Shown here piece after piece: positions 11,567-14,940 of a DNA stretch of 41,861 bases. The translations under genes and the position numbers were made by a program. Each line of letters begins with the position of its first letter. Position 1 is the first letter of the stretch. Source of the stretch: Melioribacteraceae bacterium (lineage in GTDB: Bacteria > Bacteroidota > Ignavibacteria > Ignavibacteriales > Melioribacteraceae); NCBI GenBank assembly GCA_027013735.1, contig JALWGH010000125.1, positions 1-41,861 on the forward strand. The letters are read 5' to 3'. Below the pieces are notes generated by a model. It ran no database searches. It saw only the letters and a program-made list of their open reading frames with translations, and was not told the origin of the DNA.

Positions 11567-13297
11567 TTATTTGATTTTCTTAGCATTAAATTCTTTACCG
11601 TTTTGAAAAAGCAGCAGTCCCGTTACTCCTCCGCTTTTGTCTTTTTTGAATTCAATTTGGGCGTTCACCACTTTGTAATAAAATTTTGTTTTACTCATCG
11701 GAAAAATCTCGAATTCCGGTTGTCCCGTTGCCTTTGCAAAAAGCCGGTTGTTTTTTGCTCTTACTAAAATATTAAAATTGGGCATCAGTTCATATTCACC
11801 TGTGTAGGATTGTAGTTCTTTTGCAGTGGGCATTTCTTTGTTGGCGGAAAGATTCACGCCGAGCTTCTTTAATATTTTTACACCGTTCTGATTGCCCGGA
11901 TTAAGCTCAACGGATTTTTTGTAATTTCCAATTGCAGCGGCTGTGTCCCCCTTTGCCAAAAGGGCTTCGCCCATGCTGTCGTAAACGTTCGAGGATTTTG
12001 GAAACGAGGAAATATTCAACTTAAAAATTTTAATTGCGTCGTCAATTCTTTTTTGTTTCAGCAGCCAATAGCCGAGGTAATTCAGTTCGTCTTCGGAAAA
12101 ATCAAACACATCCGGTTCTTGAGCTTTAAGTTGTTTGTACTCCGAAACTGCTGAGTCAATCCCCTCGTCACGGATTATTTCGTAGAGGTAATCTTTAATC
12201 GGCTTTTTGGGTAAAACGGGTTGCCCGCCGTGCAAAAGCATGTGAATATTTTGAGCCATCGAAACAAGTTTTGTAGTGCCCGTGTTGTTGAAAAGCAGAA
12301 CAAGATTTCCGGAGCTTGTGTCTCTTGAGATGATTGTGTTGAAACCGTTTATTCCTCCCGTGTGCCAAATAATTGCGAAAGAGTCCCCGTCAGGGAAAAC
12401 CGTTTTGTAAACAAACCACCCGAAACCGTAACCGAATTTGTTCGGTGTAAACATTTCCTTTTTTGATTGTTCGGACAGGATTTTGTTGCCGTAAAGTGCT
12501 TTGTCCCATTTAACCATGTCCTTAACCGTTGAGTACATATTGCCAGCGCCGAGAGCATTCGGCATGTAAATGTACGGGTCTTTGAAAAGCTCGAAGCCTG
12601 CTTTAATGTAACCGCTTGCCATTTTCTTAACCGGTTTTTCTTCTTTACTTTCGATTCCGGTGTTGTTCATTCCGAGCGGCGTTAAGATTTTTTCTTTCAA
12701 AACTTCCCCGTAAGACTTGCCGGTTATCCTTTCGATGATTGCCCCGAGCAGATAGTAGCCGGTGTTGTTGTAACTGAATTTTGTGCCGGGCTCAAACTCC
12801 AAATCCCCGCTGCAGAAATGTTTAATGAAATAATTTTCGTCGTAGTGATTTCTTAGCGAGTCGCTCCAAACATTAGGCAGGGAGGTGTAAGAAGGGATTC
12901 CGGAAGTGTGATTCAGTAATTCCCTGATTGTAACTTTTTCGCCGGTATCTTTTCTGTAATCTTTTAAGTAATCGGTAATTTTGCCGTCGAGGAAAATTTT
13001 ACCTTCTTCCGACAGTTGCAAAATCATTGCGGCAGTGAATTGTTTGGTTATCGAACCGATCCGGAATTTTGTGTCCGGCGTGTTCGAAACATCCCATTCG
13101 TAATTGGCAAAGCCGTAGCCTTTCGAAAGAATTACTTCCCCGTTTCTTTCAATCAGTGCGATGCCGTTAAAATAACCGAATTCGTTGTAACGTTGTAAAA
13201 GATTGTCAAGCTCGGTTTTCAGGTCTTGAGGAAAATTACTCGCAGGCGAGAGCAAAAACAAAAAAAGTAAAAACAGTTGTAATTTTTTAAGTCTCAT
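11567..13297 (-). CDS. Serine hydrolase (beta-lactamase/class C PBP fold) with C-terminal TPR and extension
   Basis: SITKQFTAAMILQLSEEGKI (SxxK), YNNTGYYLLG (YxN), HTGGINGF; C-terminal TPR SNVYDSMGEALLAKGDTAAAIGNYKKSVELNPGN; N-terminal signal peptide. Confidence 0.93.
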   Translation of the reverse strand: MRLKKLQLFLLFLFLLSPASNFPQDLKTELDNLLQRYNEFGYFNGIALIERNGEVILSKGYGFANYEWDVSNTPDTKFRIGSITKQFTAAMILQLSEEGKIFLDGKITDYLKDYRKDTGEKVTIRELLNHTSGIPSYTSLPNVWSDSLRNHYDENYFIKHFCSGDLEFEPGTKFSYNNTGYYLLGAIIERITGKSYGEVLKEKILTPLGMNNTGIESKEEKPVKKMASGYIKAGFELFKDPYIYMPNALGAGNMYSTVKDMVKWDKALYGNKILSEQSKKEMFTPNKFGYGFGWFVYKTVFPDGDSFAIIWHTGGINGFNTIISRDTSSGNLVLLFNNTGTTKLVSMAQNIHMLLHGGQPVLPKKPIKDYLYEIIRDEGIDSAVSEYKQLKAQEPDVFDFSEDELNYLGYWLLKQKRIDDAIKIFKLNISSFPKSSNVYDSMGEALLAKGDTAAAIGNYKKSVELNPGNQNGVKILKKLGVNLSANKEMPTAKELQSYTGEYELMPNFNILVRAKNNRLFAKATGQPEFEIFPMSKTKFYYKVVNAQIEFKKDKSGGVTGLLLFQNGKEFNAKKIK

Positions 13298-13517
13298 TTT
13301 TCACTCCGGGTTTTATTTTTAGACGAATTGATTTCGACGAGGTTCGGGTTGCAATTTGTGACGCTTTAATGCCGATGATAGCTCCGCAGGAAGGACAAAG
13401 TAAAATATTAGCATTGAACGCTGTCCCCGAATAATAGACGGAAATTACTTTTTGCAAATGTTCTTTGCAATCGGGGCAGAAGTAATTTTGGTTCTCTATT
13501 TTCACCGTTTTACTCAT
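13287..13517 (-). CDS. Small zinc-ribbon protein
   Basis: FCPDCKEHLQKV...LLCPSCGAIIG has two CxxC pairs. The 3' end overlaps the serine hydrolase start by 11 bp. Confidence 0.6.
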   Translation of the reverse strand: MSKTVKIENQNYFCPDCKEHLQKVISVYYSGTAFNANILLCPSCGAIIGIKASQIATRTSSKSIRLKIKPGVKNET

Positions 13518-13600
13518 ACAAATAAATTACACACAAAACAAAATTTTATTCGATTTCGGAATGGAGTTTTTAATTCCTGAAAAAATATTTTCGTAAGCTT

Positions 13601-13670
13601 CGATACCTTCGGCATCGGTTTATCTTTTCATTATTTTTTTTTCTACATACTTTCGACCCCCTTGGGGTCG
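13601..13670 (+). repeat. Composite palindromic module, copy A
   Basis: CGATACC-TTC-GGCATCG (13601-13617), T-rich spacer, then CGACCCC-CTT-GGGGTCG (13654-13670). Confidence 0.8.
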
Positions 13671-13692
13671 GTAAATTGTTGGCAAGCTGTAG

Positions 13693-13714
13693 CGCGGATT
13701 GCTTGCAATCTGCG
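13693..13714. repeat. 9-bp palindrome CGCGGATTG-CTTG-CAATCTGCG (one G-T wobble)
   Basis: Read directly from the sequence. Confidence 0.75.
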
Positions 13715-13773
13715 TAAGGGTTTAGTTTTTGTTACGTTGGATTAAGGGGCGACAAGTTTGAGAAGAAAAAACT

Positions 13774-13934
13774 GTCATTGCGAGCGGAATGAAATGGAGC
13801 GAAGCAATCTGTATTCTTAAAAAGCCAATGTTGAATAAACGACGGATTGCTTCACCGCTCCTGACGTCGCGGTTCGCAATGACGGGATGAACGACAGATT
13901 GCTTTATCCCGACAAGTCGGGATTCGCAATGACG
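13774..13934. repeat. Inverted-repeat (MITE-like/interspersed) element with one left arm and two tandem right arms
   Basis: Left arm GTCATTGCGAG...GAAGCAATCTGT (13774-13812); right arms GACGGATTGCTTC...GGTTCGCAATGACG (13841-13884) and GACAGATTGCTTTATCCCGACAAGTCGGGATTCGCAATGACG (13893-13934). Confidence 0.8.
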
Positions 13935-13945
13935 TTTTTCATTAA

Positions 13946-14011
13946 CCCACGGCTTCAGCCGTGGGGCAGCAAGACAATCAACCCCGTACAGCCAGAACCG
14001 TTTCAACGGTT
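13946..14011. repeat. Pair of REP-like hairpins sharing a TTCA loop
   Basis: CCCACGGC-TTCA-GCCGTGGG (13946-13965) and AACCGT-TTCA-ACGGTT (13996-14011). Confidence 0.8.
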
Positions 14012-14076
14012 TCCCCACACCGAAAAAACAAACCACTCTAAAATCTGTTTTGAGAAGCCAACAAAACTAATTCCTT

Positions 14077-14150
14077 CGATACCTTCGGCATCGTTTTTTG
14101 TTTTACTTTATTCTTTTTCTACTGACATTCGTCCTCCTTTATTGTCGGGA
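14077..14150 (+). repeat. Composite palindromic module, copy B (3' hairpin degenerate)
   Basis: CGATACC-TTC-GGCATCG (14077-14093), T-rich spacer and TTTTTCTAC..ACATTCG at the same spacing as copy A (offset 476). Confidence 0.75.
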
Positions 14151-14311
14151 TCTGAAAGATTTTTAATACCTAATTGTAGTGAATGTTGGTTGGCATTTCA
14201 ATAATTTAAAGGGTTCAGGCTGGTTTCAACCAAACAGGAAATTCCCGAGAATCAAATGCTTACACTTTTCCAAATCCACCCCTCCAATTATCCAAGTATC
14301 CAAGAGAAATG

Positions 14312-14324
14312 CTACCGAAGGTGG
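14312..14324 (-). repeat. Opposite-orientation hairpin with the same ACCTTCGG core
   Basis: + strand CTACC-GAA-GGTGG; minus strand CCACC-TTC-GGTAG. Confidence 0.55.
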
Positions 14325-14424
14325 AACAAATAACAAAAGCGGATAATAGAAAGGTTCGTGGTGTAATTCCCTTCCCCTCGAGTTTTTTTCTTATATTTGC
14401 AAAAAGAAAATTGGAAAGGTTTCC

Positions 14425-14940
14425 GTGAAAAATAAAAGCGTTTTGTTTTTTTTAGCCTCGGAAGATTTCAACGAAGTTGAATTTAATACCGTCAAAAGCG
14501 CGGTGGAAAGGGCAAACTTTAATCTCTTTATTGCTTCGGATGCTTTTTCCCTTTGTACGGGGGACAAGGGTTTGAAAATTCGCCCCGATGTTTCCGCTTA
14601 CAACATGAAGGCAATAAATTTTGGCGGACTTGTTATTATTGGCGGCGAGGGTATTAGAAAATATTGGAATAATAAAAATTTGTTAAAGCTGGTTAACGGT
14701 TTTGTAGCTCAAAGAAAGCCCGTCGGGGCAATTTGCATGGCGCCGGTGGTCCTTGCCAGGGCGGGAGTGTTAAAGGAAAAGAAAGCGGTTTGTTACCCAC
14801 CCGTTAAAGCCGAGCTGGAAAAAGAAGGCGTTGAATTTAGAGATGAACCTGTTGTAATGGAAGGTAATATTGTTACCGCAAGAGATTATTTGTCGGCGGA
14901 AGAATTTGCCGGTTCAATGATTTACCTCCTCAAAAAATAA
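14425..14940 (+). CDS. DJ-1/PfpI family protein
   Basis: VLFFLASEDFNEVEFNTVKSAVERANF...GGLVIIGGEGIRKYW...KPVGAICMAPVVLARAGVL. The ICMAP nucleophile elbow is present. GTG start. Confidence 0.9.
   Translation: MKNKSVLFFLASEDFNEVEFNTVKSAVERANFNLFIASDAFSLCTGDKGLKIRPDVSAYNMKAINFGGLVIIGGEGIRKYWNNKNLLKLVNGFVAQRKPVGAICMAPVVLARAGVLKEKKAVCYPPVKAELEKEGVEFRDEPVVMEGNIVTARDYLSAEEFAGSMIYLLKK

Follow-up and report, generated by a model that had tools for sequence, protein, structure and literature searches.

The hairpin-rich gap at positions 13598-14139 of the window (the whole 41,861-nucleotide stretch of Melioribacteraceae DNA analysed here) is a mosaic of sharply bounded, dispersed repeat modules belonging to at least three families in the same 3.12 Mb genome. 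We consider it likely that these are non-coding mobile repeats, that one of them, module C, is half of a REPIN-like element mobilised in trans by an IS200-like Y1 (HUH) protein encoded at C91 of the genome, and that modules A and B belong to other families. The gap lies between a zinc-ribbon-like ORF on the minus strand (13287..13517; weak DZR / DUF7479 matches) and a DJ-1/PfpI family gene on the plus strand (14425..14940; TIGR01382, E 9e-30, under its cut-off). A reading of the letters alone, hereafter the sequence-only reading, had called 13590-14340 a palindrome hotspot. Counting perfect palindromes with a stem of at least 6 bp, a loop of at most 8 and at least 3 G/C, we found five versus 0.66 expected, a number reached in 0 of 500 dinucleotide shuffles, and the stretch is the densest 750 bp of the window for perfect palindromes. 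The verified stems lie at 13654-13670 (7 bp), 13697-13710 (the 6-bp core of a stem claimed at 13693-13714), 13906-13923 (8 bp), 13946-13965 (9 bp) and 13996-14011 (7 bp), and the long-range terminal inverted repeat at 13774-13934 (GTCATTGCGA/TCGCAATGAC) is genuine. Of the other stems listed, those at 13601-13617 and 14077-14093 share an identical 17-mer, CGATACCTTCGGCATCG, whose stem has one A.C mismatch, and that at 14312-14324 is a chance-level, non-repeated 5 bp. The latter lies in the unique plus-strand spacer that leads up to DJ-1 (14140..14424), and our search of the genome returned no strong second copy of 14112-14430. No credible ORF had been seen across the hairpins; the two ORFs that span the cluster gave zero matches in a Pfam search, and a coding role is rejected on that ground.

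Boundaries were obtained by searching pieces of this interval against the window's own genome and stacking the matches genome-wide, and copy counts come from genome searches together with 71 contigs (821 kb) that were picked for carrying repeats. Module A (13598..13714, on the plus strand like all modules described here) consists of the hairpin CGATACCTTCGGCATCG (13601-13617), a T-rich linker, the hairpin CGACCCCcttGGGGTCG (13654-13670) and a GATTGC-GCAATC hairpin (13693-13714). Its edges in the pile-up are sharp, with a start at 13598 and ends at 13670 and 13714, and outside a larger 460-bp element it has 35 copies, mostly at 74-87% identity. A second, partial copy at 14068..14137 (pile-up start 14068, ends 14134-14139) is 80% identical to 13598-13663. 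At L173:17582-18040 (G000:C198) we observed a non-coding element of ∼460 bp that encloses one module A and has imperfect terminal inverted repeats; its long copies number ∼13, at 89-97%. Module B (13771..13884) consists of two ATTGC-[tip]-GCAAT hairpin arms in inverted orientation, bearing the terminal repeat given above, and is followed by an extra right arm with the tip ATCCCGACAAGTCGGGAT (13887..13937), which forms a separate pile-up with those boundaries. It has 62 merged copies, with identity of up to 92% over nearly the full query, and the 821 kb hold 107 arms in which a constant ATTGC/GCAAT base carries about six interchangeable tips; arms were seen at 13771-13937 in the window and also at L123, L126, L133, L137 and other loci. 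We found the outer pattern of module B in 70 of 396 Bacteroidota genomes, with 218 occurrences in G122 and none in the reversed control. A literature search of partial coverage found no description of a repeat with its core sequence.

Module C (13939..14048; 22 copies) is a REP-like hairpin pair that forms the left half of a REPIN-like element. A TTAA head (13942..13945) stands directly 5' of hairpin H1, CCCACGGCTTCAGCCGTGGG (13946..13965; TTCA centre, 9-bp perfect stem), and is followed further on by hairpin H2, AACCGTTTCAACGGTT (13996..14011; TTCA centre, 7-bp perfect stem). Full-length copies in the genome read TTAA-H1-H2-spacer-H2'-H1'-TTAA, with inverted hairpins and a TTYA centre, and the H1-to-H2 centre distance is 46-49 nt in nearly all pairs listed. 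Across the 71 repeat-bearing contigs TTYA hairpins number 89 versus 6 in the reversed sequence. The same contigs hold other TTYA hairpin families to which no Y1 gene is assigned, namely CCACGGGTTTCAACCCGTGG (8), GCCGTCGGATTTATCCGACGGC with variants (∼12) and CCGTTTGCTTCAGCAAACGG (4). Searches of the genome with modules A, B and C thus showed all three to be multi-copy, which disposes of the possibility, raised with the sequence-only reading, that each hairpin is single-copy.

That reading had proposed REP-like elements mobilised in trans by a RAYT whose gene is absent from the window. A Y1_Tnp search of the genome found two genes, both outside the window. The first (C91:687-1133; 148 aa) is a single-copy IS200-like Y1 (HUH) gene that is preceded by H1-H2 and followed by a complete H1-H2-H2'-H1', and these are module C hairpins. 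Because the gene is flanked by them on both sides, an in-trans Y1 mobiliser is plausible for module C, and to this extent the proposal stands. The protein is not a class-2 RAYT, since it scores 28.8 bits against the NCBIfam REP model NF047646 (cut-off 80), and TTAA takes the place of GTRG. Against the IS200 model NF033573 (cut-off 55) it scores 54.2 and the protein of the second gene, at C169, 69.3; the family scores of the C91 protein favour IS200 over REP transposases. An AlphaFold2 model of a C91 relative (pLDDT 90.9) is nearest to the IS608/ISDra2 TnpA proteins and next to the REP transposase 4er8. The C91 protein carries the motifs EHVH and YIKTQEEHH, and Y---Q--HH is present in 103 of 105 relatives. 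Judged by length, HUH motif and Y---Q--HH, all read from sequence, it matches TnpA_Y1 subclass 1.2, for which the table of Quentin et al. (2018) gives a median of 148 aa, the motif YIKNQKEHH and REP 'no', and which was described as being without typical terminal structures (PMC6006769). The C91 and C169 genes are ∼36% identical, and near-identical repetition of a whole element was thus not seen. At L031:1150-1490 (G000:C169) the second gene is preceded by GCTCC...GGAGC hairpins that look like a separate family, and an automatic scan found no clear matching hairpin pair around it. For modules A and B the proposed mobilisation found no counterpart: no mobiliser was identified for either, and the C169 gene was rejected as a candidate because its flanks bear these different hairpins of the GCTCC-GGAGC type.

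Of 30 Y1 genes from relatives in the order, 21 are flanked upstream and downstream by matching hairpins, versus 0 of 28 DJ-1 controls. A wider set of 105 Y1 relatives, partly overlapping the order set, was chosen by protein similarity alone from named genomes of several phyla and a phylum sample; here a hairpin lies within 300 bp in 101 cases, on both sides in 68, and the two sides match in 59. Control windows shifted by 1 kb had both-side hairpins in 0 of 87 cases, although these windows are probably mostly coding and the DJ-1 set is the better position control. The hairpin centre is TTTA, TAAA, TTCA or TGAA in 306 of ∼340 flanking hairpins, and the nearest upstream and downstream hairpins are inverted relative to each other in 47 of 60 loci. 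In Y1 loci closely related to C91 the 5' foot ATTAAC is conserved at 75-95% per position (T94, A90, A95, C95%), and no conserved 3' counterpart was found in these loci. Several genomes of the order also carry dispersed hairpin copies, the multi-genome counts from flank queries being lower bounds (best 12 candidates per genome). Outside the order, 400 kb sampled from G376 gave 8 hairpins versus 3 reversed, two of them flanking the gene, with few dispersed copies, and a gene-less genome gave 1 versus 0 reversed. A high dispersed copy number is established for the window's own order only.

An H1 pattern in which 15 bases are fixed and four pairs are free matches 35 of 116 genomes, and the reversed pattern gave two single matches. 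Each of the four free pairs varies on both sides across the 53 distinct H1 sequences; double-changed cells number 71 versus 27.4 when shuffled, and the pairing is lost once the partners are slid out of register. The pattern was found in 14 of the 19 genomes that encode a close Y1 relative versus 21 of 97 others (p = 2e-5, in a comparison that ignores shared ancestry and uses a threshold for close relatives, E <= 1e-45, picked after seeing the data). Its association with any Y1 match is weaker (p = 0.02, again ignoring shared ancestry). Some genomes that bear the hairpin (G015, G102 and G106) have no detected Y1 relative, and the exact H1 pattern is absent from five that do have a close one. 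Hairpin distance tracks protein distance (Mantel r 0.38, 0/2000), a correlation in which co-evolution and common descent are not separated.

The sequence-only reading had also placed the clusters between genes and regarded the spot as a landing pad for several element families, and both points agree with what we found. ORFs of at least 120 aa hold the midpoint of 5 of the 119 copies of A, B and C, and of 1 of the 22 copies of module C, while such ORFs make up 83% of those contigs. Module B lies within 600 bp of module C in 21 of 62 copies versus 0.6 expected, and A co-occurs with B in 14 of 35 versus 1.0 expected; these expectations assume random placement genome-wide and ignore gene avoidance, which overstates the excess somewhat, but we do not think by factors as large as those seen. 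The modules may share spots because elements of this kind can settle in, or favour, the same non-coding sites; composites would then be copied as blocks, as the recurrence of B-C-A' at C129:10044-10407 (minus strand, 87-93% identity) suggests. A comparison of the orthologous gap, proposed with the sequence-only reading, found the modules absent upstream of DJ-1 from 29 of 29 loci in relatives. Most relatives that possess DJ-1 as well as dnaG have the two as divergent neighbours, 120-245 bp apart from start to start, with one at 741. Here dnaG is on C255, with a copy of module A in its upstream gap (L166:4578-4883); since the two are neighbours in most relatives and split here, the cluster coincides with a break in synteny. 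G001, a genome of the same genus, likewise has dnaG displaced but carries no repeats beside it, so that the break may predate the repeats. The G001 contig stops ∼40 bp upstream of DJ-1, and no clean pair of empty and filled sites was found for module C. It is conceivable, if unlikely, that the clustering of the repeats, as distinct from their spread, came about by recombination, with the repeats marking a rearrangement breakpoint and building up through unequal exchange, and not by targeted insertion. The splitting of the dnaG / DJ-1 pair at this very place, the module A copy adjoining dnaG and the duplication of B-C-A' as a block would all fit, whereas the displaced dnaG of G001 suggests that the break may be the older event, and the spread of the families is left unexplained. 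Such a history is compatible with the main reading of the interval as a mosaic of mobile repeats.

Two further explanations concern what the repeats are. It is highly improbable that the palindromes act as RNA, either as terminators or as structured RNA, and are retained on that account. Their stems do covary, as RNA stems would, and the nearest Rfam match, Acido-Lenti-1 (RF01687; minus strand, 13965-13915), covers H1 and its flank at 29.1 bits versus a gathering threshold of 37. However, the cluster is not conserved as a unit, as its absence from the 29 DJ-1 loci shows, the hairpins are seen in either orientation and on the upstream as well as the downstream side of Y1 genes, and 20 Y1 loci gave no Rfam match above threshold. 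One conserved structured RNA, the finding that the sequence-only reading had named as fatal to itself, is rejected because the Rfam match is sub-threshold and the interval is not conserved at the site. We also think it quite unlikely that the subclass 1.2 genes and their hairpins are ordinary low-copy insertion sequences of the IS200 type, with the solo hairpins as decayed ends. In favour of this view, the closest family and fold are those of IS200/IS605 TnpA, subterminal hairpins are carried by IS200 elements, and in G376, the one gene-bearing genome examined from beyond the order, hairpins hardly occur away from the gene. Yet the ends of IS200/IS605 elements are read on one strand, whereas the nearest flanking hairpins of most Y1 loci are inverted, and solo H1-H2 pairs here outnumber the gene by well over ten to one. 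Subclass 1.2 also departs from IS200 in having 1.7 copies per genome at 36% mean identity between copies, versus 99% for IS200 (Quentin et al., PMC6006769).

Under the preferred reading, in which module C is mobilised by the C91 protein, the anatomy suggests that C hairpins would fold as single strands and be recognised by this protein. We infer that it may bind and cleave the hairpins and rejoin them in trans, and that H1-H2-H2'-H1' units would be copied or moved in trans, as has been proposed for REPINs. The earlier guess at the kind of element was largely right. To a broader proposition we give about even credence, namely that subclass 1.2 Y1/HUH proteins (Bacteroidota, Verrucomicrobiota, Acidobacteriota and others) form a second, independent REP system of IS200-type enzymes, parallel to class-2 RAYT/GTRG, which in trans maintains and spreads pairs of hairpins with TTYA loops (REPINs, with a TTAA head in the window's relatives). 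What is new is that the C hairpins are linked to an IS200-like protein group reported without REP partners, and single-strand DNA endonucleases of an orphan group thereby gain a concrete predicted substrate with a defined hairpin, loop and head. If the proposition is true, the REP/RAYT arrangement, which is credited to class-2 proteins, would have arisen or persisted outside them as well, and the change of an insertion sequence into a domesticated repeat system could be compared in two lineages.

Among known systems, the REP, REPIN and BIME sequences with their TnpA_REP (RAYT) proteins in E. coli, Stenotrophomonas and Pseudomonas (PMC2817692, PMC3116915, PMC8266576) resemble module C in being many-copy, short intergenic hairpins, in the inverted flanks around a single-copy Y1 gene, in a 5' head (GTRG in REPs, TTAA(C) here) that is conserved at the foot of the hairpin while the 3' side varies, and in stems that vary and stay palindromic. 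They differ in the protein, a class-2 TnpA_REP with an NP-type Y motif versus an IS200-like class 1 protein with Y---Q--HH, in the GTRG versus TTAA head, in phylum, and in that C hairpins come as H1+H2 pairs. The TTTA/TTCA loop is a further likeness: some class-2 proteins have been found experimentally to read the loop, that of Marinomonas reading TTTA (PMC8266576), and the Haemophilus REPs listed in PMC2817692 have CTTCAG/CTTTAG centres. Acido-Lenti-1, which aligns over its whole model, shares with module C a short hairpin followed by UAAU; it differs in scoring under its gathering cut-off and in having no match in the 20 other Y1 loci, and this 'RNA' may itself be a related DNA hairpin. TnpA_Y1 subclass 1.2 (PMC6006769) is like C91 in its 148 aa, [DE]H[IV]H, Y---Q--HH, low copy number and presence in Bacteroidota; the survey gives REP 'no' for it and mentions no typical terminal structures, whereas nearly all the genes examined here are hairpin-flanked. 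The IS200/IS605 elements (IS608, ISDra2) are the closest to C91 in fold and sequence family, and their recognition of single-strand hairpins, predicted also for the C91 protein, counts as a likeness; unlike them, the system described here has single, divergent gene copies, inverted hairpin flanks and many solo hairpin pairs.
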